A stretch of 64,000 bases of DNA from Terriglobus roseus (GTDB lineage: Bacteria; Acidobacteriota; Terriglobia; Terriglobales; Acidobacteriaceae): contig NZ_LT629690.1 in the NCBI RefSeq assembly GCF_900102185.1, forward strand, positions 62,001 through 126,000, in the 5' to 3' direction. Position numbers and translations under genes: made by a program. Shown piece after piece: positions 8,647 through 25,640 of the stretch. Below the pieces are notes generated by a model that was not told the DNA's origin, did not search any database, and worked only from the letters and a program-made list of their open reading frames with translations. The first letter of the stretch is position 1. Every line of letters begins with the position of its first letter.

Positions 8647-11355
8647 CTATTGGGCGCGGTTGCGTAGGGCACGGCGTGTGTAAAGGCCGTGGATGAGCGT
8701 GGCGGCGAGGGCGGTCCAGCCGGTCTGGTGCGAGGCTCCAACACCGCGGCCCGTGTCGCCGTCAAAGTATTCGCTGAACAGAATGAGGTTCTTCCAGTGG
8801 GGGTCGTCAGCGTAACGATGTTCGCGGCCGTGGCTGGGACGATAGCCATCCTTGTCTGGAAGGAAGAGGTTCACCATGCGGCGAGCGATGTCTTCGGCGA
8901 TTTCAACGAAGGTCTTTTGTTCGCCGCTGCCGGTGGGGTATTCCATGGTGAAGCTGTCGCCGTAGACGAGGTAGTAACGCTCGAGCGCGGTGATGAGCAG
9001 CATGTTCATGGGGAACCATACGGGGCCGCGCCAGTTGCTGTTGCCGCCGAACATGCCGCTGTCGCCCTCTGCGGGAACGTAGCGTACGGTGAAGCGCTGG
9101 CCGTGGATTTCCGTCTCAAAGGGATGTTCGAGGTGATGACGCGAAAGGCCACGGATGCCGTGTGGCGAAAGGAATTCTGATTCGTCGAAGACGCGGCGGA
9201 GGATGCGTTCCATGCGGTCGCGCGGAGCGATGGCGATCCAGCGCGAGTTATCGATTTCAGGGTTGCCGCTCTTCGCAGTGGTTACGAAGTTCTTGAGTTC
9301 GGTTTTGTAATCAAGGAACCAGTCGATGCGCTTTTTGAAATCGTTCAGACCTTTGACGGTGCCTTTCTTCAGGATGCAGACGGCATAGAGCGGTGCGATG
9401 CCGACGAGGCTGCGTGCCTTGAGTGCGGTGGAGTTGCTCCCATCGGTTTTTTCGAGGCGGTCGAAGTAGAAGCCTTCTTCCTCATCCCATAGGCCGTTGC
9501 CACTGCTGGAATTGATGGCATCGATGATGGAGATGTAGTGCTCGAAGAACTTGTTTGCAATGTCTTCGTACGCGCTGGAGCGGCGGTGCGCAAGTTCGAG
9601 CGCCATGGTGAGCATGACGGAGCAGTACAGTCCCATCCATGCTGTGCCATCGGCCTGATGTAGGAGGGTGTCTTGTGGCAGCGGGATGGAACGGTCGAAG
9701 ACGCCGATATTGTCGAGGCCGAGGAAGCCGCCGCCGAAGAGGTTGCGTCCTGACTGGTCGTTGCGGTTGACCCACCATGTGAAGTTGAGCAACAGCTTCT
9801 GGAAGGCGCGTTCCAGGAACTCGATGTCGCCTTCGTTGTTCTTATCAATGCCGAGGCGATAGACGTGCCATACGGCCCATGCATGCACGGGCGGATTGAC
9901 GTCGCCGAATGCGAACTCGTATGCGGGCATTTGCCCGTTGGGGTGCATGTACCACTCACGCAGCAGGAGCAACAGTTGGTTCTTTGCGAACTCCGGATCG
10001 ATCTGCGCCATGGGGATCATGTGGAATGCAGTGTCCCATGCGGCGAACCATGGGTACTCCCACTTGTCGGGCATGGAGAGAACGTCACGACAGAAGAGGT
10101 GACGCCACTCCGCAGACTTTTTACTGCGCGGTGGTGGCGCTACCTGTGTTGAGTCGCCGCTCATCCACTGCTGCGCGATGAAGTAGTAGAACTGCTTGCA
10201 CCATAGCAGTCCTGCGTAAGCCTGGCGCGAGACGTTGCGCTCTTCCTTGGTGGCCTGGAGCGGGATGTGCGTTCCATAAAAATCGTTTGCTTCTGCGATG
10301 CGTTGATCGAAGATGGCTGCTGCTTGTTCCGCTTCAATGCGCGGCGGATGGGGCATATCTGCTGTTGGCAGTCGGACGAGGCGCAAGTAGACGGATCGGC
10401 TTTCGCCTGCGGGGATGGTGTCTTTGAAGAGCAGTGCGCAGCGTGTGCCCTCTGTGTGTTTCACGGCGTTGGCGTCGCCGTGAACGATGTAACGATCGAA
10501 GCCGTCTTTGCTGTAATGCGGCTCGCCTTTGTAGTTGGGGTCGAGGCGGAAGAAGTTGGTGTCGTTCTCAGTGAAGAGCAGTTCACTGGGCGTGAGTTGG
10601 CTGCCGGTGAGCGCGTAAAAGTTATATGTGCCCAGCATCTTGTGGACGGCGCGGACGCCTGTCTCTGCGCGCTTGCGAATGATGGGACGCGTTTTGCCGG
10701 TGGCTTCAAGATTGCGCCATGACCAGTTGTTGCGCAGCGTCAACGTGGGCAGCAGGTAGAGCGGTGCAGCGTCAGGGCCGCGATTGGAGGCGGTGATGCG
10801 GATGAGCGTGTCTTCATCGTCGGCCTTGGCGTATTCGATGAGGATGTCGAAGTAACGGCTCTCGTCGAAGATGCCGGTGTCGAGTAGTTCGTACTCAAGG
10901 TCGTTGTAGCCACGACGCTTGTTTTCTTCGCGCAGCTGCTGGTACGGGAAGGCACGTTGCGGATACTTGTAGAGCGCCTTGCAGTAGCTGTGCGTGGGTG
11001 TGGCGTCGAGATAGTAGAACTGCTCTTTGACGTCTTCGCCGTGATTGCCTTCCTGATTGCCGAGGCCGAAGAGGCGCTCCTTCAGGTGCGAGTCCTGGCC
11101 GTTCCACAGCGCGGTTGAGAAGCAGACGCGGCATTGGCGGTCGGTCCATCCGAGAAGACCGTCCTCGCCCCAGCGATAGGCACGGTACTGCGCCATCTCG
11201 TAGGGAAAGCTAGTCCACACATTGCCATCGGCGGAGTAGTCTTCGCGCACGGTGCCCCACTGGCGTTCCGGAAGGTAAGTGCCCCAGCGCTGCCAGTTCT
11301 TTTGACGGGTCCGATTTTCTTCTAAGCGATGTTCTTCGGCGGTGGTGTGTGACAT
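8647..11355 (-). CDS. GH63-like (MGH1-type) glucosidase
   Basis: A large cytoplasmic-looking glycoside hydrolase of about 902 residues without a signal peptide, resembling bacterial (alpha/alpha)6-barrel glucosidases related to GH63/MGH1. Recognisable stretches are the N-terminal WGTYLPERQWGTVREDYS, AWDTAFHMIPMAQIDPEFAKNQ, MPAYEFAFGDVNPPVHAWAVW, ERILRRVFDESEFLSPHGIRGLS and the C-terminal NSNWRGPVWFPMN, HQTGWTALAA. The natural substrate in this family is often a manno- or glucosyl-glycerate or a glucan, which cannot be settled here. The frame opens at a TTG (11373), but ATG 11355 is the better start. It is divergent to the GH43 gene. Confidence 0.85.
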   Translation of the reverse strand: MSHTTAEEHRLEENRTRQKNWQRWGTYLPERQWGTVREDYSADGNVWTSFPYEMAQYRAYRWGEDGLLGWTDRQCRVCFSTALWNGQDSHLKERLFGLGNQEGNHGEDVKEQFYYLDATPTHSYCKALYKYPQRAFPYQQLREENKRRGYNDLEYELLDTGIFDESRYFDILIEYAKADDEDTLIRITASNRGPDAAPLYLLPTLTLRNNWSWRNLEATGKTRPIIRKRAETGVRAVHKMLGTYNFYALTGSQLTPSELLFTENDTNFFRLDPNYKGEPHYSKDGFDRYIVHGDANAVKHTEGTRCALLFKDTIPAGESRSVYLRLVRLPTADMPHPPRIEAEQAAAIFDQRIAEANDFYGTHIPLQATKEERNVSRQAYAGLLWCKQFYYFIAQQWMSGDSTQVAPPPRSKKSAEWRHLFCRDVLSMPDKWEYPWFAAWDTAFHMIPMAQIDPEFAKNQLLLLLREWYMHPNGQMPAYEFAFGDVNPPVHAWAVWHVYRLGIDKNNEGDIEFLERAFQKLLLNFTWWVNRNDQSGRNLFGGGFLGLDNIGVFDRSIPLPQDTLLHQADGTAWMGLYCSVMLTMALELAHRRSSAYEDIANKFFEHYISIIDAINSSSGNGLWDEEEGFYFDRLEKTDGSNSTALKARSLVGIAPLYAVCILKKGTVKGLNDFKKRIDWFLDYKTELKNFVTTAKSGNPEIDNSRWIAIAPRDRMERILRRVFDESEFLSPHGIRGLSRHHLEHPFETEIHGQRFTVRYVPAEGDSGMFGGNSNWRGPVWFPMNMLLITALERYYLVYGDSFTMEYPTGSGEQKTFVEIAEDIARRMVNLFLPDKDGYRPSHGREHRYADDPHWKNLILFSEYFDGDTGRGVGASHQTGWTALAATLIHGLYTRRALRNRAQ

Positions 11356-11460
11356 GGGTTCTTTGATGCTCAAGTGTCCGATAGGTCACAAGCTGATTGG
11401 GATACCACATTTTTGTTAGTGGCCGTTGCAGTGTCTGGCTATGGGTTAGTGTATTGACGC

Positions 11461-11489
11461 TTGACCGGGCGTGCATGTTGGCTTGGAAT
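11461..11489 (+). promoter_or_regulatory. Candidate promoter for the GH43 gene
   Basis: TTGACC at 11461-11466 and TGGAAT at 11484-11489 are 17 bases apart. A transcript starting about seven bases downstream would begin at or very near the ATG at 11496, implying a leaderless or nearly leaderless mRNA. This is inference from consensus matching only. Confidence 0.35.
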
Positions 11490-11495
11490 TGGCGG

Positions 11496-12446
11496 ATGAA
11501 ACTTCTTCGCGTGTTGGTGTTGTGTGTTTTGAGTGCGGGTGTTGCGGTGGCGCAGGCGAATCCACTACTGGATCATGCGGACCCATTCATTACGCTGCAT
11601 CCGGTGCAGGGCAAGTACGTGTTGCTGGCGACCACGGGCAACAACATTACGCTTTGGAGCGGCGCCTCTGTGCCTACCGCGGCGCAGGATAGCAAGGTGG
11701 TGTTAACCGCGCCTGAAGGGATGGATCAGGTGTGGTCGCCGACGCTGTGGCAGATGCAGGGGAAGTGGTGGATCTACTTTACGGCTCGCATGAACAAGGG
11801 CGGCCATGCCATCTTTGTGTTGTCGTCAGATACGACTGATGTGTTTGGTAGCTACACGTTTCATGGTGCGCTGGAGCTGGGAAGACCTTCGATTGATCCG
11901 TCATTGTTGATGGTGAAGGGCGTGCCGTACCTGATGTATGTGACAGTGGATCGTGGTGAGAATGCGATCTGGATGACGAAGCTTGCATCGCCATTGCAGC
12001 CGGTGGGTGAGAAGGCATTGATTGCGGAACCGGAGTTCGCGTGGGAGCGTGGTGCGGGGACGACGAAGAACTATCCCGTGAATGAAGGGCCTACAACGCT
12101 GTATCACGCGGGTAAGACTTTCATTGTGTATTCGGGGAGCGATACGGCATCGCCACGATATTGCTTGGGATTGTTGACGTTTCGTGGCGGCGATCCGTTA
12201 GTGCGGACGAACTGGGTGAAGATGCCGCAACCGGTGTTTGAGGCGAATCCTGCGAATGGGATTTATGGGCCGGGGCGTGGCACGTTTGCGCAGGATGCTG
12301 GCGGTTGGTGGCTGCTGTATGCGGCCAAGGCTACGGATGATCCTACGTCTCGGAATCGTGCGGTGCGGGCGCAGCGATTTACGTGGAAGGATGGCGTGCC
12401 GGTGTTTGGTGTGCCGATGAAGGATGGGCCGATCAACTCTCGCTGA
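11496..12446 (+). CDS. Secreted glycoside hydrolase family 43-type enzyme
   Basis: A 316-residue exported five-bladed beta-propeller hydrolase, likely acting on arabinose- or xylose-containing plant polysaccharides. A signal peptide (MKLLRVLVLCVLSAGVAVAQA) precedes the three GH43 carboxylates: general base Asp in HADPFITLH, pKa-modulating Asp in PSIDPSLLM, and general acid Glu in VNEGPTTLY. The frame is open from 11397, but ATG 11496 gives the signal peptide. The C-terminal GPGRGTFAQDAGGWWLLYAAK is also family-like. The stop codon falls inside the terminator hairpin. Substrate specificity (arabinosidase, xylosidase or other) cannot be assigned. Confidence 0.88.
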   Translation: MKLLRVLVLCVLSAGVAVAQANPLLDHADPFITLHPVQGKYVLLATTGNNITLWSGASVPTAAQDSKVVLTAPEGMDQVWSPTLWQMQGKWWIYFTARMNKGGHAIFVLSSDTTDVFGSYTFHGALELGRPSIDPSLLMVKGVPYLMYVTVDRGENAIWMTKLASPLQPVGEKALIAEPEFAWERGAGTTKNYPVNEGPTTLYHAGKTFIVYSGSDTASPRYCLGLLTFRGGDPLVRTNWVKMPQPVFEANPANGIYGPGRGTFAQDAGGWWLLYAAKATDDPTSRNRAVRAQRFTWKDGVPVFGVPMKDGPINSR

Positions 12447-12478: not shown

Positions 12479-13252
12479 TCACAGGCGGACAGGAACGCCG
12501 TGTTGTTGCAGTTCGCGCTTGAGTGCCCAGCTATCGGTGATGCCGAAGTGGAAGATGCTGGCGGCGAGTGCGGCGTCTGCTTTACCGCGACCAAACACAT
12601 CTGCGAAGTGTTGTGCGTTGCCTGCGCCGCCGCTGGCAATGACAGGGATCTGCACGGCCTGCGAGACGCGTGCGGTGAGTTCGTCGTCGAAGCCGGTGCG
12701 TCGACCGTCGGAGTCCATGCTGGTGAGCAGGATTTCGCCTGCGCCGCGCTGCTCAGCTTCAATGGCCCAATCGACTACTTTCAAGCCGGTGTTTTTGCGT
12801 CCGCCGCTTACGTACACTTCGGCATTGCCTACGGGATCGGATGAGTCCGCGGCACGCTTGGCGTCGATGGCGACGATGACGGCTTGGGCTCCGAAGCTGC
12901 TGCCGATTTCACCGATGAGTTCCGGGCGTGCGATTGCGGAGCTGTTGATGCTGACCTTGTCTGCGCCTGCCAAGAAGACCTGCTCCGCGTCTTCCGCCGA
13001 GCGGATGCCGCCGCCTACGGTGAAGGGGATGAAGAGTTCCGCGGCGGTGCGCTTCACTGTGTCGATGAGTGTGCCGCGGCCTTCGTGTGTAGCGGTGATG
13101 TCGAGCAGAACGATTTCGTCCGCGCCCGCTGCTGCGTGGCGGTGGGCAAGTTCGGCGGGGTCACCAGCGTCGATGATGTCGACGAACTGAATGCCTTTGA
13201 CGACGCGTCCGGCACGGACGTCGAGACAGGCGATGATGCGTTTGGTCAGCAT
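12479..13252 (-). CDS. hisF: Imidazole glycerol phosphate synthase, cyclase subunit
   Basis: HisF is the (beta/alpha)8 partner of the glutaminase HisH. It condenses PRFAR with ammonia to give imidazole glycerol phosphate and AICAR. The 257-residue length is standard. The catalytic Asp residues lie in [15 protein letters not shown] and in [15 protein letters not shown], with phosphate loops TVGGGIRS and VIASGGAG. It is the last gene of the main his operon, one base downstream of the small gene 13254-13673, and converges on the GH43 gene. Confidence 0.97.
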
Positions 13253-13253
13253 G

Positions 13254-13673
13254 TTATTTCTTCTTCCCGCGAATGTTGAGTAGCTTCATAAGTCCATCGA
13301 GAAGCGGAGAGCTTTCACGATCACGGATATGTTGAATTCGAGTGCGCTCAGCTACTTCAATGGCTCGCAATGTTATAGGGCCAGCTTCTGCGCGAATTCG
13401 ATTTGCATTTCTTAGTGATGGGAGTGGTTCTCCGAGGCCGATGTAAACCAAATTGGAGTCGTCAACGGCTGTTTGTTCTACAAATCTCATAAGCCGTTTG
13501 AATTCGTGATCATCAGTTTCAGCAACATCATCCAATCTTGGCTGAAGGATGGTTTCGAAGATTAGATAGTGGCCGGGCTCCTCGTCGTCAAAGTAATCGA
13601 ACATCTTCAATGCGTGCTCCTCCAAGTGGGGGAACTGAGCGAAAAAGCGCGCGTTGAAAGCTGTCCAGATCAT
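13254..13673 (-). CDS. Uncharacterised small protein inserted between hisH and hisF
   Basis: I do not recognise this 139-residue protein. It is soluble and acidic in its first two thirds ([21 protein letters not shown], with many D/E) and ends in a basic LLNIRGKKK tail. The length and acidic helical look recall small immunity-type proteins, but that is only an impression. The start is ATG 13671-13673, sharing one base with the hisH TGA; the longer open frame upstream of it is a shadow of hisH. The base composition is visibly more A+T-rich than in hisH and hisF, suggesting later arrival in the operon. It is transcribed with the his genes. Confidence 0.75.
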
Positions 13674-14281
13674 CACAGCTCCACGAAATTGCGTAGTAGT
13701 TTGAGGCCGGTGTCGCCGGATTTTTCTGGGTGGAACTGGACGCCCATTACGTTGTCGCGTTCTACGGCTGCGGTGAAGGGGCCGCCGTAGCTGGTGGAGG
13801 CTGCGGTGTCTTTGCTGATGGGCGCGCGCCAGGAGTGGGTGTAGTAGACGAACTCGCCGTTGGTGATGCCGCGCAGCAGTTTGCTGTCGGGGCGGATGTC
13901 TTCGAGGGAGTTCCAGCCTACGTGGGGGCTTTTGAGTTCGGCTCCGTTGAAGGTGGCAGGGAAGCGTTCGCACTTGCCGCCAAAGGCGCAGAGGCCGTCG
14001 GTGCTTTCTGCTTCCGTGGAGCCCTGATAAAGCCACTGCAAGCCCACGCAGATACCGAGGAAGGGCACGCCGCGTGCGATGGCTTCGCGTGTGGCCTCGG
14101 TCAGCTGTAGGTCATGCAGAAGCTGTGTGGCCTGAAAGTGACCCACGCCGGGAAGGACGATCTTGTCGGCCTTGCGGACGTCGTTGGGCGATTGCGTGAT
14201 GTTGGTCTCTGCACCGAGATAGTTAAGTGCCTTAACTACGCTGGTGAGATTGCCGGCTTTGTAGTCGATTACCTGGATCAT
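13673..14281 (-). CDS. hisH: Imidazole glycerol phosphate synthase, glutaminase subunit
   Basis: HisH hydrolyses glutamine and channels ammonia to HisF. It is a 202-residue class I glutamine amidotransferase with nucleophile Cys in FLGICVGLQWLYQGS, catalytic His-x-Glu in GVQFHPEKSG, and an early IDYKAGNLTSV. Its TGA overlaps the start of the small gene 13254-13673 by one base. Upstream lies the small membrane-protein gene at 14304-14672. Confidence 0.97.
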   Translation of the reverse strand: MIQVIDYKAGNLTSVVKALNYLGAETNITQSPNDVRKADKIVLPGVGHFQATQLLHDLQLTEATREAIARGVPFLGICVGLQWLYQGSTEAESTDGLCAFGGKCERFPATFNGAELKSPHVGWNSLEDIRPDSKLLRGITNGEFVYYTHSWRAPISKDTAASTSYGGPFTAAVERDNVMGVQFHPEKSGDTGLKLLRNFVEL

Positions 14282-14290
14282 AATTTTTAG

Positions 14291-14330
14291 GCGAGTCCGC
14301 GGGTTAGCGAGTCAGCAAGTCAGCGGGCTC
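14291..14330. repeat. Imperfect 8-bp tandem repeat at the end of the small membrane gene
   Basis: Five octamers in a row (GCGAGTCC, GCGGGTTA, GCGAGTCA, GCAAGTCA, GCGGGCTC) span the last codons and stop of the 14304-14672 gene and the gap before hisH. Such GCGAGTCA-type octamer runs look like a replication-slippage or insertion scar rather than coding selection. Confidence 0.6.
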
Positions 14331-14672
14331 GGTGTTCTTCGTTTTGAATCCACGTATGATGCGGGCAATTTCTAATACAAACGTAATTGCGAAAATGAAA
14401 GCCAAATCTTTCGCACTGCTCTTGAGTGTTTCCCTAAATGCTCCATCTACCAGCATTAAAGTGACCACAATCCAAAGTGGAAGAGACGCCCACTTCTTCT
14501 GCAGATATCCCAGTAAGCAGAGCGGGAACATAAGCACTGCACAGGCGTTACCTAAAGTGAGATGTGGGTAATAGCCATACGACACGAATCCAAGACCACA
14601 CATGAAAAGCGCACCTGCGCTTGCCATGATGAATAAGGGAACCGACATGTCTGTACGGCTAATTCCCCACAT
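14304..14672 (-). CDS. Small membrane protein inside the his operon, function unknown
   Basis: A 122-residue protein with about four hydrophobic helices (LFIMASAGALFMCGLGFVS, NACAVLMFPLCLLGYL, PLWIVVTLMLVDG, LAFIFAITFVLEIARI) and a polar C-terminal tail. I recognise no family. It is noticeably more A+T-rich than its neighbours. It lies nine bases after hisB and 22 bases before hisH, so it must be co-transcribed with the his genes, but there is no reason to link it to histidine synthesis. The stop codon is inside an octamer tandem repeat. The start may be the ATG at 14648 (MSVPLF) instead of 14672. Confidence 0.65.
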   Translation of the reverse strand: MWGISRTDMSVPLFIMASAGALFMCGLGFVSYGYYPHLTLGNACAVLMFPLCLLGYLQKKWASLPLWIVVTLMLVDGAFRETLKSSAKDLAFIFAITFVLEIARIIRGFKTKNTEPADLLTR

Positions 14673-14681
14673 AAGACGTCC

Positions 14682-15371
14682 CTAGAGCAGCCCCTTAGTG
14701 GAGGGCAGCAGGTCTTTCATGCGTTCGTCGCGGCTTACGGCTCCGCGTAGGGCTCGGGCGAAGGCTTTGAAGATGGCTTCGATCTTGTGATGGTTGCTGC
14801 GGCCGTACATGGTTTTTACGTGGACGTTGCAGCGGCCGCCGCGGGCGAAGCCGTCGAAGAAGTCGGTGACGAGTTCGGTTTGCATGTCGCCGACGATGGC
14901 TACGTTGACCTGGTCGTCTACGGCGTAGCCGACGCGGCCGCTGATGTCGATGGCGGCGACGGCGAGTGTCTCGTCCATGGCCATGACGAAGTAGCCTGCG
15001 CGCAGGATGCCTTTCTTGTCGCCGAGTGCCTTATCGAACGCTTCGCCGAGTGCGATGCCTACGTCTTCAATGGTGTGGTGCTGGTCGACGTCGAGGTCGC
15101 CGTTACAGACGAGGTCGAGATCGAAGCCGCCGTGGCGCGTGAAGAGTTCCAGCATGTGATCGAAGAAGCGGATGCCGGTGCGGACGTTGTAGGTGCCCTG
15201 GCCGTCGAGGTTGAGGCGCAGCTTGATCTTGGTTTCGGTGGTGTTGCGATCAATCTCTGCGATGCGTGGCGATGCGGTGGCAGCCACTGCGGGAGTGCCC
15301 GGCTGATTGGGGAACGCTTCGGTGTATGCGGGTGCGGTGTGGAGGTCGCTTCCGTTTTGTTCATTACTCAT
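14682..15371 (-). CDS. hisB: Imidazoleglycerol-phosphate dehydratase
   Basis: Monofunctional IGP dehydratase (229 residues), the sixth step of histidine synthesis. It shows the two manganese-binding repeats of the family: [17 protein letters not shown] with [17 protein letters not shown], and [19 protein letters not shown] near the C-terminus. The first 38 residues are a polar, Pro/Ala/Thr-rich extension not found in most homologues; a later start is not offered by an in-frame ATG. No histidinol-phosphatase domain is attached. Its ATG overlaps the hisC end by eight bases. Confidence 0.96.
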
Positions 15372-16491
15372 AGTCGGGTGTCTCCTTCGGTTGTGTCTCC
15401 GGCTTGTTCACTTCGGCGGGCGTCCATCCCATGCCTGCAAGTGTGTCGCGGAGTGCGGCGATGCCGGTGGTGATCTGATCTTCAAGGCCAATGGTGATGC
15501 GGACGCAGCCATCGAGGCCGGGGTCGCTGCTGCGATCGCGGACGAGTACGCCGCGTGCGCGCATGCCATCGACAAATTCCTTGTGGCGCGGGCCAATGTG
15601 CATGAGTACGAAGTTGGCGTGCGACTGCCAGTAAGGCACCTTCATGTTGGCGAGCGCCTTGTACACGCGTTCGCGGCCTTCGGTGATTTGTGCGACGTAC
15701 CAGTCGATGTATTCGGTGTCGTCTACGCTGGCGTTGACGGCGGTGAGTGCGATGCCGTTGACGTTGTAAGGCGAGCTGGCCTTGCGGAGATGGTTAATCA
15801 GATTAACTGGTCCGGCGATGGCGCCGACGCGCAGGTTGGCCAGACCGTAGGCCTTGCTGAAGGTGCGCGCGATGAGAATGTTGGTTAGTTCTCCGCTGAT
15901 GAGATCGTCCATGACGGATTCGCCGAAGAAGTGGAAGTACGCTTCGTCGACGAGAATCACCGCGTGTGGTGCGGCTTTCGCGATGGTGCGAATCTGCTCA
16001 CGCGTGATGGTGTTGCCGGTGGGGTTGTTTGGCGAGCAGAGGATGATGAGCTTGGTCTTGGGCGTGATGGCTGCGAGCATGCGCTCGTAGGGGAACTCAA
16101 GCTTGTCATCCATCTGGATGCGAACGAGTTTCGCGCCCATCGCCATGGCGTTGACGTCATACATGAAGAACGACGGCGTGGCGAAGAGGCATTCGTCACC
16201 TTCTTCAAGGAAGGTGTAGGTGACGAGGTGAATGCCTTCGTCAGTGCCGTTGGCGAGCAGGACCTGTTCTGGCTTGAGGCCGTAGTGTGCGGCGACCTTT
16301 GCTTCTACGGGGCCGCGCTCGGGATAGATGGTGAAGCTTTCCAGCGAGAGTGTGCTGAGTGCTTCACGCACGCGCGGCGATGGTGCGTGCGTGTTCTCGT
16401 TGAAGTCGAGGCGCAGAGCGTCGCGGCCACCGAGAGGTGGGTGGTACTCCGGCATGGCGAGGATGGCGCGGCGGGGTTGAATGTCGCTCAT
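15364..16491 (-). CDS. hisC: Histidinol-phosphate aminotransferase
   Basis: PLP enzyme (375 residues) of fold type I that transaminates imidazole acetol phosphate with glutamate. Visible landmarks are [12 protein letters not shown] near the N-terminus, [34 protein letters not shown] and the PLP-lysine segment [18 protein letters not shown], with a C-terminal RITIG. ATG 16491 overlaps the hisD TGA (ATGA). The reading frame is open further upstream, but that part is a shadow of hisD. Confidence 0.96.
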
Positions 16492-17753
16492 CGTTTGCCT
16501 CCTTTTCTGCGGATGCGCACGGAGTTGGCGTGCGCGATGAGGCCTTCGGCCTCTGCGAGTGCGATGGCGTGCGGCGCAAGTGTGGCGAGGCCGCTGCGCG
16601 TGTAGTTCTGCACAGTGATGACTTTGAGGAAGTCGTTCACGCTGAGTCCGCCACGCATACGACCGACGCGGCCTGTGGGCAGAACGTGGTTGGGGCCGCT
16701 GATGTAATCGCCCATGGATTGCGGTGAATAGTTGCCGATGAAGACGCTGCCAGCGTTGATTACCCACTTGAGGTCTTTGTCGCTGTCGACGGTGAGGTGT
16801 TCGGGTGCGAGGCGGTTGGTGATGGTGTGTGTCTCTTCGATATCGCCGCAGAGGAAGACTGTGCCGCGTGCCTTCAATGAGATTTCAGCGAGCTTGTTGC
16901 CCTTGGCTTGCAGCTTGGTTTCCGCAACCACGTCGCGTGCGAGCTGTTCGTTTGCGGTGACGAAGACCGCGAGGGTTTCGGGGTCGTGCTCGGCCTGCGC
17001 AACGAGGTCGGCGGCGATGCCTGCGGCATTGCCCTTCTCGCTGGTGACAACGATTTCCGTGGGACCTGCGGGCATGTCGATACCGCACTCGGTGGATGCG
17101 ATGATCTTCGCGGCGGTGACGTAGAGGTTGCCGGGGCCAACGATCTTATCGACGTGCGTGATGGTCTGCGTACCGTATGCGAGTGCTGCGATGGCCTGCG
17201 CGCCGCCGGTGCGATACATCTCCGTGATGCCTGCGAGGTGCGCTGCCGCGAGTGTTTCGCGTGCGGGCTTCGGCGAGCAAACGACGATGCGCTTGACGCC
17301 TGCGACGGATGCGGGGATCGCGGTCATCAGCAGCGTTGAGGGAAGAGGGAAGCGTCCACCGGGGACGTAGCAGCCAACAGATTCGAGCGGGCGAACGATC
17401 TGGCCTACGGTGACGCCGGGCGTGTTCTGCGTCATCCACTCTTCGGCTTTCTGTTGTTCTGCGAAACTGCGAATGTTTTCTGCTGCGGTCTGCAATGCGG
17501 CTTTTAGTTCTGGTGATGTTTCATTCCACGCGGCGAGCATTTCTTCCTGCGTTACGCGGATGGGGCCGTTCAAGCTGTCGAACTGCGTTGCGTATTTCAG
17601 CAGCGCCTTGTCGCCGTTCTTCTGCACGTCGCGCATGATCTTGCGGACGACGGGTTCCACCTCGGCGGTTTTGACTGCACCGCGGCGCTCGAGTGTGGCG
17701 AGGAGTTCGTAGGCGTTAGCTTTGGCGCGGCCTGTGGTCTTGATGAGCTTCAT
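16488..17753 (-). CDS. hisD: Histidinol dehydrogenase
   Basis: NAD-dependent, zinc-containing enzyme (421 residues) performing the last two oxidations from histidinol to histidine. It shows VGCYVPGGRFPLPSTLLMTAIPA, IVVCSPK, DKIVGPGNLYVTAAK, GIDMPAGPTEIVV, APEHLTV and the active-site region NHVLPTGRVGRMRGGLSV. It lies 151 bases downstream of hisG across a repeat-bearing spacer, and couples to hisC by a four-base overlap. Confidence 0.97.
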   Translation of the reverse strand: MKLIKTTGRAKANAYELLATLERRGAVKTAEVEPVVRKIMRDVQKNGDKALLKYATQFDSLNGPIRVTQEEMLAAWNETSPELKAALQTAAENIRSFAEQQKAEEWMTQNTPGVTVGQIVRPLESVGCYVPGGRFPLPSTLLMTAIPASVAGVKRIVVCSPKPARETLAAAHLAGITEMYRTGGAQAIAALAYGTQTITHVDKIVGPGNLYVTAAKIIASTECGIDMPAGPTEIVVTSEKGNAAGIAADLVAQAEHDPETLAVFVTANEQLARDVVAETKLQAKGNKLAEISLKARGTVFLCGDIEETHTITNRLAPEHLTVDSDKDLKWVINAGSVFIGNYSPQSMGDYISGPNHVLPTGRVGRMRGGLSVNDFLKVITVQNYTRSGLATLAPHAIALAEAEGLIAHANSVRIRRKGGKR

Positions 17754-17767
17754 TGGTCGTCCCTTGT

Positions 17768-17896
17768 TGCATTCCCGTGGTGCGAGAGGAATGCAGGTCC
17801 TTCGACTTCACTTCGTTTCGCTCAGGATGACGCACGCTGTGCGTATGAGCCTCGCTGTTCCTCACGCGAGCTTCGTTACATGAAGCTCGCATGAGG
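17768..17896. repeat. Intergenic hairpin-rich element between hisG and hisD
   Basis: The 151-base spacer holds an 8-bp inverted repeat (17768-17775 with 17788-17795), a segment ending TTTCGCTCAGGATGACGC of the kind scattered through many genomes, and a 15-bp hairpin with one mismatch (17860-17874 with 17882-17896, loop 7). There is no T-run after the hairpin in the transcribed minus direction, so an mRNA-processing, partial-termination or repetitive-element role is more likely than full termination. Confidence 0.55.
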
Positions 17897-17904
17897 AGGC
17901 TGTT

Positions 17905-18780
17905 CTACAGAACAACCTTGCTCAGCGGATATTCGACAATGCCGCTGCCGCCTGCTGCCTTGAGCTTGGGGATGACTTCGCGCACGGTGCTTTCGGGCAG
18001 GATGGTGTTCACGGCGACCCAGTTCTCATCCTTCAAATGCGAGACGGTGGGTGACGAGAGTGCGGGCAGGATCGACAGGATTTCGTCGAGGTTGGCCTTG
18101 GGTACGTTGAGCATCAGGCCGACCTGCGAGAGCGCGTTGATGGCGCCATTGAGCATAAGCGCCAGGTTGTCGATCTTCTGCTTCTTGAACGGATCGGCGT
18201 AGGCAGCCTTGTTGGCGATGAACTGCGTCTCGCTTTCCATCAGCAGATCGATCACGCGGAGGCGGTTGGCGCGGAGGCTGTTGCCGGTCTCGGTGACTTC
18301 AACGATGGCGTCGCAGAGCATGGGCGGCTTCACTTCGGTTGCGCCCCAGGAGAAGTCGACCTTAACGTTGATGTTCTTTTCGGCGAAGTAGCGCTTGGTG
18401 TACTCGACCAATTCGGTGGCAATGACTTTGCCTTCCAGGTCTTCGGGCTTCTGATAGGGCGAGTCTTCGGGAACGCAGAGAACCCACTTCACCTTCTGGC
18501 GGCTGGCCTTGCTGTACGTGAGCGAGGTGATGCGCTCAACGTCGGAGAGGTTCTCAAGAATCCAGTCGTTGCCGGTGAGGCCTGCATCAAGTGAGCCGGT
18601 TTCTACATAACGTGCCATCTCCTGCGCGCGGACGAGCATGCATTCGATCTCGGCGTCGTTGATGGAAGGGAAGTAGCTGCGGCCCGAGGGATCGATCTGC
18701 CAGCCAGCAAGTTTGAAGAGGTTGAGTGTGGCGTCCTGTAGGGAGCCCTTGGGGATGCCGAGTTTGAGTTTCTTGCTCAC
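17905..18780 (-). CDS. hisG: ATP phosphoribosyltransferase, long form
   Basis: First committed enzyme of histidine synthesis, joining ATP and PRPP. At 291 residues it is the long form, with a C-terminal regulatory HisG_C domain (about residues 215-291, [20 protein letters not shown]) that binds histidine. This form does not need HisZ. The catalytic half shows [22 protein letters not shown] and the PRPP loop region [17 protein letters not shown]. Start is GTG at 18780 with a GGAG ribosome site upstream. Feedback inhibition by histidine plus the upstream attenuator would give two layers of control. Confidence 0.96.
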
Positions 18781-18823
18781 TGTTTTCTCCGAAGTTTGGA
18801 AACTTGTTGTCGCGATGCGCGCG

Positions 18824-19174
18824 TTACTTGCCGAGTTCGATTTCTTTGGTGAAGCAGCTTACGGTGCCTTCGTGGCAGACCAGGCCGTCGCCTTCCACTT
18901 CCACCTGGAAGAGCAGCGTGTCAAAGTCGCAGTCGGTGCGCAGGCTGACAATCTTCAGGCGGTTGCCGCTGGTTTCGCCCTTCATCCACAGCTTGTTGCG
19001 TGTGCGCGAGAAGAAGGTGACGAATCCGGACTCCAGTGAAAGGCGGTAGCTCTCCTCATTCAGGAAGCCGAGCATGAGCATCTGGCCGGTGGCTGCGTCC
19101 TGCACAATGCCGGGGACAAGGCCGCCTGCTTTTGCGAAGTCGATGGTGGGTTGCGGGGCTGCTGCTGTGGTCAT
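18824..19174 (-). CDS. hisI: Phosphoribosyl-AMP cyclohydrolase
   Basis: Opens the adenine ring of PR-AMP in histidine synthesis. The 116-residue protein from ATG 19174 shows [30 protein letters not shown], the metal-binding DCDFDT and the zinc cysteines of CHEGTVSC. It has only the HisI domain; no HisE pyrophosphatase is fused, and none is found in the window. First structural gene of the his operon, downstream of the attenuator. The upstream extension of the reading frame to 19222 crosses the terminator hairpin and is unlikely to be translated. Confidence 0.95.
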
Positions 19175-19222
19175 ACGTTCCTCAAGTCTGATGTGTCGTT
19201 TGTGATGAGGCGGACACAACAA

Positions 19223-19253
19223 AGCCCGCCGGTGAGCATCGCTCGGGCGGGCT
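19223..19253 (-). terminator. Attenuator terminator of the his operon
   Basis: On the minus strand an 8-bp G+C stem (19246-19253 with 19223-19230) is extended by an inner 4-bp stem (19241-19244 with 19234-19237) and followed by TTTGTTGTG. It lies 35 bases after the His-rich leader stop codon and 48 bases before hisI. A GGCGGCGG run inside the leader (19309-19316) could pair with part of the 5' arm and act as antiterminator when a ribosome stalls on the His codons. Confidence 0.75.
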
Positions 19254-19288
19254 GGTGATGAATCGAATCCTGTGCTTGCTGCCTTCGT

Positions 19289-19372
19289 TTACCGCTTTGC
19301 ACCGGATACCGCCGCCGTCGCGCTGATATGCGCGTGGTGATGGTGGCCGTGATGGTGCGTGCGGACGAGCAT
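19289..19372 (-). CDS. hisL: Histidine leader peptide (attenuator)
   Basis: A 27-codon reading frame, too short for usual gene calling, begins MLVRTHHHGHHHHAH and ends in AKR and TAA. Eight of the ten residues 6-15 are histidine, in the order HHH-G-HHHH-A-H. It lies directly upstream of the his operon on the same strand, with a promoter just before it and a terminator-type hairpin 35 bases after its stop. This is the classic arrangement for transcription attenuation: low charged tRNA-His stalls the ribosome in the His run, blocks the terminator, and lets hisI onward be transcribed. Seen: the peptide, hairpin and order. Inferred: the mechanism. Confidence 0.9.
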   Translation of the reverse strand: MLVRTHHHGHHHHAHISATAAVSGAKR

Positions 19373-19382
19373 TGCAGCTATA

Positions 19383-19412
19383 AAGCTACCCGGGATGCGG
19401 GCGGTATGTCAA
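19383..19412 (-). promoter_or_regulatory. Promoter of the his leader and operon
   Basis: Perfect TTGACA (+ strand TGTCAA at 19407-19412) with TAGCTT (19383-19388) 18 bases downstream on the minus strand. Predicted transcription would start only a few bases before the leader ATG at 19372, so the leader peptide would be read from a nearly leaderless transcript; no Shine-Dalgarno is visible before it. Confidence 0.6.
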
Positions 19413-19509
19413 TTATTTCAGTGCGATGAAGAGCTTTGACTACGGTCTATGCAGCGGCGCTGCGGTGGCGTATCTTCCTTACGGAAGTACTCTTTGGAGG
19501 ACATTTCGT

Positions 19510-19833
19510 ATGAAGTTTTTCCGCTCGCTTCCCCTTCTTGCACTGGCGCTGACCCTGCTGCCGGTTTCACCCGCGCAGAGCAAGCCGGCGGCCAAGGCTG
19601 CTGCAACTGCTCCGACCCCTCCGGCGATGACCATGGGTGATCCGCTGGATATCAATACGGCATCGCTGGACCAACTGCAGGCTCTGCCGGGCATTGGCCA
19701 GGTGTACTCGAAGAAGATCATTGACGGTCGTCCGTACACGGCGAAGAACCAGCTTGTATCGCGCGGCATTGTTCCCAAGGCCACGTATGACAAGATTTCG
19801 TCGCAGATTGTAGCGAAGCAGGTTAAGAAGTAG
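19510..19833 (+). CDS. Secreted ComEA-like helix-hairpin-helix protein
   Basis: A 107-residue exported protein. A signal peptide (MKFFRSLPLLALALTLLPVSPAQS) is followed by an Ala/Pro linker and one helix-hairpin-helix DNA-binding domain: LDINTASLDQLQALPGIGQVYSK-type sequence with the hairpin LPGIG and a KNQLVSRGIVPKATYDKI second half. This resembles the C-terminal domain of ComEA, which binds incoming DNA in the periplasm during natural transformation. The protein lacks a membrane anchor apart from its signal. Start is ATG 19510, with GGAGG nine bases before it. No other competence gene is nearby, so a role in DNA uptake is inference. Confidence 0.85.
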   Translation: MKFFRSLPLLALALTLLPVSPAQSKPAAKAAATAPTPPAMTMGDPLDINTASLDQLQALPGIGQVYSKKIIDGRPYTAKNQLVSRGIVPKATYDKISSQIVAKQVKK

Positions 19834-19851
19834 CTTCGAGTTTTACGTATG

Positions 19852-19883
19852 AGAAAGGGGGAGCCTCGCGGCTCCCCCTTTCT
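19852..19883. terminator. Bidirectional terminator
   Basis: Perfect 14-bp stem (19852-19865 with 19870-19883) with a TCGC loop, A-rich on one side and T-rich on the other. It lies between the convergent helix-hairpin-helix and phosphoglucomutase genes. Confidence 0.9.
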
Positions 19884-19897
19884 ATTTGTGTGTCTCG

Positions 19898-21562
19898 TTA
19901 GCCTTTGAGGGCTGCGTTGACCAGTTGCTTGGCTTCGTCCTGAATCTGGCGTAGGTGATCTTCACCCTGGAAGCTTTCCGCGTAGATTTTGTAGACGTCT
20001 TCTGTGCCGGAGGGACGTGCTGCGAACCAGCCGTTCTCCGTCGCGACCTTCAGACCGCCGATGGATGCGCCGTTGCCGGGTGCCTTGGTGAGGATGGCAG
20101 TGATGGGTTCGCCTGCCAGTTCCTTGGTCGTGACCTGTTCCGGCGATAGCTTGCCGAGCTTGGCCTTTTCTTCCTTGGTAGCTGCGGCGTCAATGCGCTG
20201 GTAGACGGGGTTGCCGAAGCGTTCCGTGAGCGACTGGTAGAGCTGTCCGGGGTCTTTGCCGGTGCGTGCGGTCATCTCGGCGGAGAGCAGGCCCATGATG
20301 AGGCCGTCCTTGTCGGTGGACCATGCGGAACCGTCAAGGCACAGGAACGATGCGCCTGCCGACTCTTCGCCACCGAAGCCGAGCGAACCATCGGAGAGGC
20401 CGTTGACAAACCACTTGAAGCCGACAGGTACTTCGAGAACCTTGCGGCCAAGACCAGCGCCGACGCGATCAATCATCGAGGATGAGACGAGCGTCTTGCC
20501 GATCGCAGCTTCCTTGCGCCAGTTGGGGCGGTTGTCGAAGAGGTACTCAATGCTGACGGCGAGGTAGTGGTTGGGGTTCAGCAGGCCGGTGGATTTAGCG
20601 ACGATGCCGTGGCGATCGTGGTCGGTGTCGCAGGCCCAGCTTACGTCGAAGTGGTCCTTGTTCTGGATCATGCCAGCCATGGCGAAGGGCGAGGAGCAAT
20701 CCATGCGGATCTTGCCGTCCCAATCAATGTGCATGAAGCGGAAGGTGGGATCCACGATGGTGGAGAGCACCTGCAGCGGCAGCTTGTATTTGTCGGCGAT
20801 GCGCTGCCAGTAATAGACGCCTGCGCCGCCGAGGGGATCAACGCCCAGCTTGAGGCCGCTGGCGGCGATGGCCTGCATGTTGACCACGTTGGAAAGGCCG
20901 TCAACGTACTCGGTGATGTAGTCGTGCTTCGTTGTTGTGGAGGCCTTCAGTGCCTGTTCAAACGGCAAGCGCTTTACGCCTGCGAGCTTTGCTTTCAGGA
21001 TGTCGTTGGCGCGGTTCTGCACCCAGCCTGTGACGTCGGTGTCGGCAGGGCCGCCGTTGGGCGGGTTGTACTTGAAGCCGCCATCCTCCGGCGGATTGTG
21101 CGAGGGCGTGATGACGATGCCGTCTGCCAGGCCGTCTTTGCGGTCCTTGTTGTAGTCCAGGATCGCGTGCGAGAGCGCGGGTGTTGGCGTGTAGCCGGGC
21201 TGACCGTTGGTCTCGGGCGTGCCCGCGTCGATGCGTGTGGCAACGCCATTGGCAGCAAGGACTTCAAGAGCGCTGCGGAAGGCGGGTTCGCTGAGGGCGT
21301 GAGTGTCCATAGCGAGGAAGAGCGGGCCGGTGATCTTCTGGCCTGCTCGGTACTCGCAGATGGCCTGCGTGATGGCGAGGATGTGGTCCTCATTGAATGC
21401 GCCCTGGAGCGCTGAGCCGCGATGGCCGCTGGTTCCGAAGCTGACCTTCTGCGCGGCGTTATCCGCGTCGGGGTGCAGCGTGTAGTAAGCGGAGACGAGA
21501 CGGGGCAGGTCGGTGAGGTGATGTGGATCGGGCAGTTTACCGGCGTTCGGGCTGTTGCTCAT
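19898..21562 (-). CDS. pgm: Phosphoglucomutase (alpha-D-glucose-specific)
   Basis: Interconverts glucose-1-phosphate and glucose-6-phosphate and so feeds dTDP-glucose, glycogen and trehalose pathways. The 554-residue protein has the substrate-binding N-terminus [21 protein letters not shown], the phospho-serine loop [13 protein letters not shown], the magnesium loop [11 protein letters not shown], the sugar-binding [12 protein letters not shown] and the C-terminal phosphate site [15 protein letters not shown]. This is the bacterial Pgm type (as in E. coli Pgm) rather than PgcA. It is monocistronic, with a terminator after it. Confidence 0.96.
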
Positions 21563-21812: not shown

Positions 21813-24800
21813 ATGCGATTGTGTTTGACTCCATTACGGACTGCGCATAGGCAGTCCGTTACCGCGGCGCTGGCATTTGCAGGCCTGTTGCTGTTGCCGG
21901 GGCGCGTCCACGGACAGGCGGCGACGCTGGCTGCAGATACTGCTGTGGATACTGGGCGTCCATCCGTCAATTTCGGTTCGTTGAGCAATCTCTACATCAA
22001 CAGCACCAGCACTTCGCTGCTGCGATTTGACCTGGGCACGTTGCCGTCTGGCACGACCGGATCGCAGATTAGCCGGGCCACGTTGCGCCTGTATGTGAAC
22101 CGAGTGAATACGCCGGGAGTGGTTGGTGTTGCACCGGTTTCAGCGGCATGGGCGGAAGGCGCGGTCACGTCGCAGACGCTGCCTGTGTTTGGCACTGTGG
22201 CGCAGGTGTTTGCTGTTACGGATGAAGGGCAGTTTGTGACGGTGGACGTCACGGCGATGGTGCAGGCCTGGGTGAATACGCCGTCGACAAATTTTGGCTT
22301 GGCGTTGACGGCGTCGACTGCGGACGTGGTGCTGGATAGCAAGGAAAGCGATACCACGGCGCATCCTGCGGAGTTGCAGATTGCACTGACCAGCGGTGTT
22401 GTGGGGCCGGTGGGACCGCAGGGGCCGAAGGGCGACAAAGGCGATGCTGGGGCCCCGGGTCCACAAGGTATTCAAGGTCCGAAGGGCGATCCGGGACCAC
22501 AAGGCATACAGGGCATTCAAGGTGTTCAAGGACCGGCTGGGCCTGCGGGTGGTCCTGTTGGACCGCAGGGGCCGGTTGGTCCTCAAGGGCCAAAGGGTGA
22601 CAAGGGCGATCCCGGTTACGGGCTGACCTACAAGGGCGCTTGGAATGCGGCCTTGTCATATGCGACGGGCGATGTTGTCACGTCTGGGAATGCCGCGTGG
22701 GTGTCGCTGGTGGACGCGAATGTAGGGAATGCGCCGAGTGCGTCCGGAGCATCGTGGGGACTGCTGGTCCCTGCGTCTTCCGGGACGTCGACGGTCATCA
22801 ACGGGTTGCTGTTTGACGCCACGTACGTGCCCACCACGAACTATGCGACGAACCATGTTGTGACGTGGCAGAACACAGCCTGGGTCTCATTGCATGATGC
22901 GAATCATGGCAATGCGCCGGATGCTTCGGTAAACGACTGGGCTGTGCTGGTACCTGCTGCCATTGGGATTCAGGGGCCACAGGGAGCTGCGGGAGCGACT
23001 GGTCCACAAGGCCCTCAGGGTGTGAAGGGCGATACGGGCGACGTTGGACCACAAGGAGCGCGTGGTGCAACGGGAGCCACGGGGCGTCCGGGGTTTGTGT
23101 ATCAGGGGGCGTATGCGTCCGCCACGAACTACGCCGCAGGAGATGTGGTGATGTGGCAGGGCGGCGCCTGGGCGTCGTTGGTGGATTCGAATCAAGGGAA
23201 CACGCCGGATATTTCGCCAACCTATTGGGGAGTGCTGACCTCGCAAGGCGCTCAGGGGTTGAAGGGCGATAAAGGCGACACAGGCGTCGCCGGGCCACAG
23301 GGGCCCGAAGGTATCGCAGGTGTGGCTGGACCTCAGGGGCCGACCGGACCGATGGGATCGACTGGACCGCAGGGCGCTCCAGGACGCGATGGTGCACAGG
23401 GCGTGCAGGGACCAACGGGGCCGGTAGGGCCGCAGGGCAATCCGGGACCGGCAGGTCTGTCGTGGCAAGGGACGTATGCGTCTGCCACGAACTACTCCGC
23501 GAACGATGCTGTGGCATGGCAGGGGCAGACATGGCTTTCCCTGCATGGCACGAACCAAGGAAATACGCCGGATAGCTCGCCTGGAGACTGGACTCTGTTG
23601 GCCGCGGCGGGTGCCACGGGTTTGCAGGGGCCACAGGGAGTTCAAGGACTTCAAGGACCGGTGGGGCCAGCAGGTCCACAAGGTGCGAAGGGTGATCCCG
23701 GCGACACAGGTGCTCAGGGTCCGCAGGGTGCTGCAGGAATGCAGTATCAGGGCGCTTACAACAGCAGCACCAGTTATGCGTTGCATGATGCGGTGGCGTA
23801 TGGGGGTGGTACGTGGATTTCGTTGCAGGCGATGAACCATGGCAATCCCCCGGATTCGTCGGCGCTGTGGTGGCAGCAGATTGCTGCTCCCGGAGCGCCG
23901 GGGCCTGTGGGTTCTCAGGGAGCGAAGGGCGATCCCGGCGATACAGGTCCTCAGGGTTTGCAGGGACCGATTGGTCCCACCGGCCCGCAGGGTCAGCCAG
24001 TGCATTTTCTGGGGGCATGGTCGGCGACAACGCCATATCTGACCGGCGATGCAGTTTTCTATGGCGGCTCGGCGTATATCGCTTCGAGTGCGGTGACGGG
24101 GAACGCTCCGGGTGTGAGTCCGGTGTGGCAGTTGCTCGCCCAGAAGGGTGATGCTGGAGCCGCAGGCTCGCAGGGAGCTCAGGGAATTCAGGGTCCACAA
24201 GGAAATCCGGGAGCCGCTGGTGCAACAGGGCCGCAGGGCGCCGCGGGATTGCAGTGGAAGGGCGTGTGGAACGGCAGCACCGGGTATGTGACGGGCGATG
24301 CGGTTTCGTATAGCGGCTCTGCTTATATCTCGACTTCCGATGTAAATGTGGGAGTGACTCCGGGATCGTCACCCTCGTGGTCGTTGCTGGCAGCTGCAGG
24401 TGTAGCAGGGCCTGCGGGTACGAATGGCACCAATGGAACGAACGGTGCGACGGGTACAGCAGCAACCATTCAAGTAGGCACGGTCAGTACAGGCACTGCG
24501 GGCAGTAGCGTGGTGGTACAGAACGTCGGCACCAGCAATGCGGCCGTTTTGAATTTCACCATTCCGCAAGGAGCGGCGGGAGCAGCAGGCACGCCGGGGT
24601 TGAACTACAAAGGAACGTGGCTGAACGGCTCTGGATACAGCACAGGCGATGTCGTCTTCGAGGCTGGATCGTCGTACGTGTCCAAGCGAGATACAAATAC
24701 GGCTGATCCCGCAACGTCTGTTGCGAACAATACGGGCGACTGGGCACTGCTGGTTTCACAGGGAAGCCCAGGACCTGCAACGGTAGCGATTGGCACAGTG

Positions 24801-25640
24801 ACCAGCGGTGCAGCCGCTGCTGTTACGAATACAGGGACTTCGAATGCAGCGGTGTTGAACTTCACTTTGCCGAAAGGCGATACCGGCGCAACCGGTGCTG
24901 TAGGGCTAACGTTCTTTGGGGCGTGGGATAGTTTGGTTTCTTATCCACCCACAAGCGTGGTCACCTATAACGGCTCGGCTTACTTTGCACGCGCTGCCAG
25001 CAGCGGCGTGCATCCTGTAGGCGATCCGACGAGCGCGTCGGCATGGTCCCTATTGGCTGCTGCCGGAGCGAACGGTGCGGCTGGAACTGCCCCATCGATC
25101 AACGTGTACGCCACGCATACGGGCAACGCGGGAACTTCCGCCATTGTGAAGAACGTGAGCACAGACCCGTCGAGTATCCAGCTGGACTTCACCATCCCAA
25201 AGGGAGATACCGGCGCGACAGGACCGACTGGTGCGACCGGGCCTGCGGGCTCGGGCGGTGGAGGCAGCTCGTTTTTCACGACGGTACACACGGTGCCGAA
25301 TGGAGCGGCGCAGTATCACAACCCCATCGCGGATGCGAAAGGCACAACCGAAAACGGTGCCGTACTGGGATGGCTTCCCTCGACGTGCAACCTGGCCAGC
25401 ATTCAGGCGTATTACTATGCCGCGGCCACCACGGGTGGGCAGCCGACGAATGCGCAATTAACCATTCGCACGGGAACGCCAGGAAACATGAGCGCGGCAA
25501 CGGCGTGTACGGTAGCGCCGAACACCACGACTACATGCACAGGGCCGGGAACTCTGGGGGCCGGCAACTTCGTGTCGCTGAACATCTCTACGATCGCGAC
25601 CACGACGTCGTACCTGTACACACAGTTCAGTTGTAACTAG
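21813..25640 (+). CDS. Large secreted mosaic of collagen-like triplets and chitin-binding-like modules
   Basis: A 1275-residue exported protein. After a signal peptide (about residues 1-35) comes a DNRLRE-like beta-sandwich (36-196, with [12 protein letters not shown] and [11 protein letters not shown]). Then Gly-X-Y collagen-like blocks (such as 197-269, 385-427, 478-548, 599-642, 693-728, 777-813) alternate with nine roughly 50-residue CBM5/12-like units, each of the pattern YxGxY-x(6)-Y-x(3)-D-V-V-x(3)-G-x-x-W-x-S-x(20)-W-x-L-L (near 272, 332, 428, 549, 643, 730, 814, 930, 1032). Three phage-tail-like repeats ending LNFTIPQG or similar lie near 884, 987 and 1094. A Ser/Thr-rich C-terminal domain with four Cys closes the protein. 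Probably a surface fibre or polysaccharide adhesin; no catalytic domain seen. Confidence 0.85.

Follow-up and report, generated by a model that had tools for sequence, protein, structure and literature searches.

The window analyzed here, the whole 64,000-nucleotide stretch of Terriglobus roseus DNA, carries a histidine biosynthesis cluster on the minus strand, with hisI as its first gene and a short His-rich frame ahead of it (Table 1). Pfam matches (PRA-CH, HisG, Histidinol_dh, IGPD, His_biosynth, and others) confirmed hisI, hisG, hisD, hisB, and hisF and placed an aminotransferase in the position of hisC and a glutamine amidotransferase in that of hisH. Two frames inside the cluster (14307-14672 and 13257-13682, both minus) had no Pfam match. 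An SD-like GAGGA at 19183-19179 ends 4 nt before the hisI ATG at 19174. A second strong His_biosynth match (PF00977; 7915-8604, minus), probably hisA, lies apart from the cluster, with two large frames (8647-11373 and 11397-12446) in between. On the other side, the divergent neighbor at 19510 encodes a helix-hairpin-helix protein. Between this gene and the convergent frame 19898-21562 lies a strong hairpin of 14 pairs (19852-19883) that resembles a shared terminator, and the plus-strand frame at 21813-25640 encodes 1275 amino acids with collagen-like GPQGPxG repeats.

Table 1. Features of the hisI upstream region and his cluster (window coordinates)
Feature	Position	Strand	Basis or remark
-35 element TTGACA	19407..19412	minus	sequence; TTGAC[N] conserved
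-10 element TAGCTT	19383..19388	minus	18-nt spacer from -35; ends 10 nt before leader ATG
Leader peptide frame MLVRTHHHGHHHHAHISATAAVSGAKR	19289..19372	minus	ATG at 19372, stop ends 19289
Sensor: ten codons, eight His (five CAC, three CAT)	19328..19357	minus	sequence
Antiterminator 5' strand GCGACGGCGG	19312..19321	minus	inside leader frame; pairs with terminator 5' arm
Predicted inner stem: AUCC (19307-19304) and GUGC (19302-19299) with GCAC (19275-19272) and GGAU (19270-19267)	19267..19307	minus	
Terminator hairpin AGCCCGCC (19253-19246)...GGCGGGCT (19230-19223)	19223..19253	minus	-20.9 kcal/mol; 5' arm common to antiterminator
Interrupted U-rich terminator tail UUGUUGUGU	19214..19222	minus	sequence
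hisI (phosphoribosyl-AMP cyclohydrolase, PF01502), first operon gene	18824..19174	minus	Pfam
Remainder of his cluster: hisG, hisD, aminotransferase, hisB, unnamed, amidotransferase, unnamed, hisF	12479..18780	minus	

The initial annotation had described a 27-residue frame at 19289-19372 (minus) with eight His codons within ten, a terminator hairpin 35 bases past it and then hisI, and a perfect TTGACA ahead of the leader. The coordinates, order, and gap agree with the sequence (35 nt separate the leader stop at 19289 from the hairpin at 19253), and TTGACA lies at 19412-19407. The pattern CAYCAYNNNCAYCAYCAY occurs 15 times in the genome of the strain (4.85 Mb, single contig), compared with once for the backwards control. 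Among these 15 occurrences, the his leader is the only site that combines a frame of fewer than 60 residues with TTGAC at most 90 nt upstream. The closest relative (L083) encodes an identical leader peptide, and the three differences between the start and stop codons all fall in third positions. Over 42 disjoint leader pairs, codon positions 1, 2, and 3 carried 99, 119, and 207 differences, respectively, a third-position excess that we take as a modest sign of coding. The leaders are 19-30 residues long, with an interrupted His run and a tail that is often conserved as VSAE- or VSG-like.

Conservation was examined first within the family. A search of 150 family genomes for HisI gave a match in 111, and 105 loci were obtained, including that of the window. 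Six genomes with fragmentary HisI matches were left out, and one locus with 54 nt upstream (L135) was dropped, giving 104 loci. Within 600 nt before hisI, each of the 104 contained a short frame in which five or more of ten codons are His, and 96 reached at least six. Controls yielded no such frame on the antisense strand (0/104), at 600-1200 nt upstream (0/93), or in mononucleotide shuffles (0/520). Eight further family genomes, drawn from a phylum-wide sample, each had a His-rich leader (8/8). Behind the leader frame, all 104 loci have a hairpin with a U-rich tail (median -22.65 kcal/mol). The initial annotation had named a lack of conservation of the His run or the hairpin in close relatives as a refuting observation; both are conserved, and it was not refuted on this count. 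As a separate observation, 39 of the 150 family genomes gave no HisI match. Among 19 of these that were searched, 18 gave no HisG match (the one match is a fragment) and 17 no HisD match, although HisD also went unmatched in Bacillus subtilis, one of the 14 control genomes. Eleven of the 17 genomes without a match to HisI, HisG, or HisD are 97-100% complete, and histidine synthesis has possibly been lost in part of the family.

The sequence after the 3' arm of the hairpin in the window reads TTGTTGTGT (minus strand). A consensus scanner run on the window flagged neither the terminator, whose U tract is interrupted, nor the promoter, whose -10 element, TAGCTT, matches TATAAT at 3 of 6 positions. 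Support came from an alignment of 84 of the 99 non-redundant stretches, the other 15 having been excluded by hand. In these 84 rows, 92.5% of the cells of the terminator helix are paired, with 55 two-sided changes; its pair and type counts, two of the five covariation measures, were no higher than in shuffles, which do not correct for kinship among the rows.

The promoter, too, is conserved in the family. In 100 of 104 loci, TTGAC[N] and a TANNNT at the proper spacing lie ahead of the leader, against 1 at a control position 300 nt upstream; these counts are slightly inflated, as the choice of leader start codon favored TTGAC at most 55 nt upstream. The -10 element ends 6-14 nt before the leader start codon in 96 of the 104 loci and farther upstream in 4. 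SD-like motifs were found before the leader start in 5 of 104 loci, counting one start; for hisI, where any in-frame candidate start was accepted, 80 of 104 loci have such a motif before one or more candidates. Judging from the promoter position, transcription in the window would begin at about 19374-19378, and at the usual distance from a -10 element to a start site no more than a few untranslated bases would remain. Since the promoter ends 6-14 nt before the leader start in most loci and SD-like motifs are uncommon at that start, we predict a near-leaderless transcript on which the ribosome would load without a Shine-Dalgarno site. Leaderless genes are reported to make up 13.3% on average in three Acidobacteria genomes (PMC3160421).

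These features bear on two other roles for the region. The frame could raise hisI translation by coupling or reinitiation rather than control termination, and short frames ahead of genes have been suggested to act in this way in several phyla, including Acidobacteria. That proposal deals with distances near 10 nt (PMC4833913), whereas the leader stop lies 48-181 nt before hisI (projected, across the family). The strong hairpin and U-rich tail intervene at every one of the 104 loci, and most hisI genes have an SD-like motif of their own before a candidate start, as counted above. We regard translational coupling as extremely improbable. The 5' region might instead be a tRNA-binding T-box or another riboswitch; his genes are under T-box control in some Firmicutes and Actinobacteria, as two articles describe (PMC9413887, PMC3896937). 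A search of 18800-19900 against Rfam returned no family at threshold, and the six sub-threshold matches, up to E 5, included neither the His_leader family (RF00514) nor a T-box or riboswitch. Moreover, the untranslated stretch is predicted to span a few bases and the remainder is coding frame, so that a T-box or riboswitch has a negligible chance of being correct.

An attenuator also requires a competing helix. The initial annotation had considered the antiterminator plausible but weak, placing its strand at GGCGGCGG (19316-19309, minus), coordinates that agree with the sequence. Weakness does hold for the window taken alone, where the antiterminator fold has a z of -0.66 and 54 of 200 shuffles fold equally well. 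Across relatives, however, the pairing covaries and is therefore supported, in a register (19321-19312) that overlaps, but differs from, the one first placed. In 100 of 104 family loci, and in 64 of the 69 named loci (taken from the best 80 of 327 HisI relatives), the antiterminator strand binds its own terminator 5' arm better than its dinucleotide shuffles do on average. Among family loci, binding averages -21.6 kcal/mol to the own arm, -15.0 to dinucleotide shuffles, and -19.7 to the arms of other loci. The preference for own over foreign arms gives p values of 3e-7 (family) and 0.001 (named loci, best 80 of 327), from statistics that ignore kinship.

In the 84-row alignment, 91.9% of the cells of the ten-pair antiterminator helix are paired, compared with 28-44% for slid-partner controls, a comparison that favors this register because the structure was taken from the predicted duplex of one locus (L116). 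Four pairs show two-sided changes, in 17 cells. None of 500 shuffles reached the paired percentage, the two-sided cell count, or the covariation score, while the pair count was reached by 2 of 500 and the type count by 7 of 500; these controls ignore kinship among rows. RNAalifold applied to the alignment recovered six terminator-stem pairs and nothing else. As the two helices are mutually exclusive, the antiterminator pairs were scored as a separately specified structure. In the window, folding further predicts an inner stem nested inside the antiterminator. Measured over 84 loci, a median of 17 nt separates the 3' end of the antiterminator strand from the downstream end of the leader stop codon, close enough that a ribosome on this codon would cover or adjoin the strand.

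Predicted folding indicates how ribosome position may influence the choice of helix. Before the terminator 3' arm is made, the 5' arm is paired at 0.77 with a ribosome in the middle of the His run, 0.45 with one at the stop, and 0.72 on an untranslated leader (medians, n = 104); values for the window are 0.67 in mid run, 0.51 at the first His, 0.49 at the stop, and 0.65 untranslated. Pairing of the antiterminator strand with the arm exceeded 0.4 in 78 of the 83 family loci (of 104) covered in the stalled state and in 58 of 104 untranslated. Folding no further than the end of the 5' arm reproduced a switch. A switch at equilibrium was tried and rejected: on the full leader, the terminator wins with medians of 0.99-1.00 in all five ribosome states, and 7 of 104 loci switch. 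Because the complete terminator prevails at equilibrium, the switch would have to be kinetic, which is the usual view of attenuators. On the untranslated leader of the window, the antiterminator strand is predicted to be sequestered in a hairpin farther upstream, the classic 1:2 protector (0.69, versus 0.03 with the arm), which would favor termination. This protector exceeds 0.4 in 36 of 104 family loci, and so the untranslated leader in many relatives may read through, unlike that of the enterobacterial his operon. The leader frame folds more than 1 sd better than codon shuffles in 63 of 104 loci.

Beyond the family set, we examined named loci comprising the best 80 of 327 HisI relatives, the nearest of which are titled Terriglobus, Granulicella, and Acidobacteriaceae. 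After removal of two loci with less than 150 nt upstream, a leader with at least four His in ten codons was present in 70 of 78, and the remaining eight (L041, L059, L068, L074, and L077-L080) yielded none. At a threshold of at least five His in ten, 61 of 77 named loci, mostly outside the family, had a leader. The terminator is present in 69 of the 70 named loci with a leader, and hisG directly follows hisI in 75 of 80. Two of the loci in which a His-rich leader was not found, L041 and L059, are sister acidobacterial loci that keep hisI-hisG and possibly represent natural loss.

The phylum-wide sample extends the picture further. HisI was found in 128 of 198 genomes, of which 70 were examined: 21 from the family (8 of them new) and 49 from other families. 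A frame with at least six His in ten codons was present in 15 of the 49 other-family loci (family codes f2, f14, f23, f32, f43, f45, and f57). The other 34 had no such frame, and in several of these the frame just upstream resembles the end of HisF by eye, that is, hisI is internal to an operon. Where checked, hisG comes directly after hisI in all 29 family loci and all 24 phylum-sample loci.

A tree of HisI and HisG (72 rows) offers clues to the history of the arrangement. Five loci titled Acidimicrobium or Actinobacteria (L042, L053, L063, L064, and L069) have the leader, the terminator, and hisG, and they group as a single clade (100/100) in the midst of rows with the titles Acidobacteria and Bryobacterales. 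The operon and its attenuator were likely transferred from Acidobacteriota to these loci; we put it no more firmly because the fork joining the clade has 83/90 support and is drawn open. Another locus titled Acidimicrobiia (L018) sits elsewhere among acidobacterial rows. Together with L004 and L056, titled Verrucomicrobia and Bifidobacterium breve, it lies within Acidobacteria rows, and all three are probably mislabeled bins. A more sweeping reading can be entertained, in which an attenuator family of its own spans Acidobacteriota, is ancestral to hisI-hisG, loads ribosomes at a 5'-terminal AUG without a Shine-Dalgarno site, and passed as a cassette with hisIG to Acidimicrobiia. We hold this tentatively, at somewhat less than an even chance; the promoter rule is satisfied in 24 of the 70 named loci with a leader (best 80 of 327 HisI relatives; mostly outside the family), which lowered its odds.

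Other amino acid operons of the relatives were scanned for sister attenuators. Enriched short frames within 700 nt upstream, by thresholds set for this analysis, preceded trpE in 2 of 20 loci, ilvB in 1 of 19, and leuA-like genes in 4 of 25, where none of the leuA-like matches reached the leuA cut-off. None of these trpE, ilvB, or leuA-like frames has a promoter placed as in his; identical code applied to the his loci returned 104 of 104 frames, 101 of them with a promoter. The scan took base 1501 as the start of every match, which misplaced it in several loci truncated by a contig end, and it left out six ilvB-like loci (L291-L293 and L295-L297).

Taken as a whole, the region is very probably a ribosome-mediated transcription attenuator of the operon that begins with hisI and hisG. 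The initial annotation had recognized the logic of the enterobacterial his attenuator here, and its elements (His-rich frame, terminator, competing antiterminator strand, and his operon) are indeed present and conserved. Comparison among relatives shows the leader frame and its terminator, the pairing of the antiterminator, the placement of the promoter, and the link between hisI and hisG. From this arrangement we infer the start site, ribosome stalling, termination, and the response to histidine. Transcription would start a few bases before the leader AUG, where a ribosome would load without a Shine-Dalgarno site. With ample charged His-tRNA, the ribosome would pass the His codons and reach the stop, covering or bordering the inner stem as well as the antiterminator strand, upon which the terminator hairpin would form and RNA polymerase would halt at the U-rich tail. 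With charged His-tRNA in short supply, the ribosome would stall in the His run and leave the antiterminator strand free to pair with the terminator 5' arm once this is made, allowing read-through into hisI.

The same frame could in principle encode a functional His-rich, perhaps metal-binding, micropeptide that has its own terminator and is unrelated to the sensing of charged His-tRNA. Occurrence of the His-rich peptide in 104 of 104 family loci and the frequent conservation of its VSAE- or VSG-like tail would suit such a function. Yet the number of His residues, from 5 to 10 per leader, and their spacing drift, and conservation of the tail is at least partly explained by its pairing with the terminator arm. 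A free-standing peptide gene also fits poorly with the near-constant hisI-hisG pair downstream in all three sets of loci, and the micropeptide reading predicts no mutually exclusive helix. We consider it very improbable and retain attenuation.

Most known cases of leader-peptide attenuation, a textbook mechanism, come from Proteobacteria, Actinobacteria, and a few Firmicutes. Among the literature matches listed (titles, abstract starts, and passages, with little coverage of subscription papers), no description of an acidobacterial his leader was found. A comparative attenuation survey (Lopatovskaya 2010, cited in PMC4833913) may contain a prediction of one. His attenuators have been described in gammaproteobacteria and predicted in a few Firmicutes, and the main text of the article concerned has no word beginning with "acidobacter" (PMC9413887). 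Acidobacteria are among the phyla whose predicted attenuators have almost never been assigned a function (PMC2965389). The attenuator upstream of hisI thus gives such an acidobacterial element a clear likely job, kept in all 104 readable family loci. With this well-defined, covariation-backed, and probably near-leaderless attenuator, one can test how polymerase and ribosome stay in step when the AUG is 5'-terminal; if loading at such an AUG holds true, the start of transcription would be tied to ribosome loading. The arrangement shared by the relatives suggests that histidine shortage in these soil bacteria is probably sensed by a ribosome-stalling switch of the Escherichia coli type.

The enterobacterial his operon begins with hisG, whereas the Terriglobus operon has hisI first. 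The enterobacterial his attenuator (hisL; RF00514) is alike in its His-rich leader peptide, alternative terminator and antiterminator, and downstream his operon (PMC9413887, PMC3896937). It differs in that the present leader has a predicted near-leaderless start without a Shine-Dalgarno site and no RF00514 match. The interrupted His run in leaders of 19-30 residues also contrasts with the 18 residues and seven consecutive His reported for E. coli (PMC3896937). The Firmicutes his attenuators (Bacillus cereus group, Peptostreptococcaceae, Lutispora, and Erysipelotrichales) are comparative predictions that share the short His-run leader, terminator, and antiterminator; compared by their published description, they belong to another phylum and have three to five consecutive His codons (PMC9413887). 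A leader frame that starts at the first base of the transcript is described for trpL of Sinorhizobium meliloti (PMC7298713) and for leuL, trpL, and ilvL of Streptomyces lividans (PMC8079986). Those cases concern other amino acids and phyla, and the start proposed here is predicted from promoter spacing. As far as we have seen, the host phylum and the RNA family would be new for his attenuators, while the logic is ordinary.
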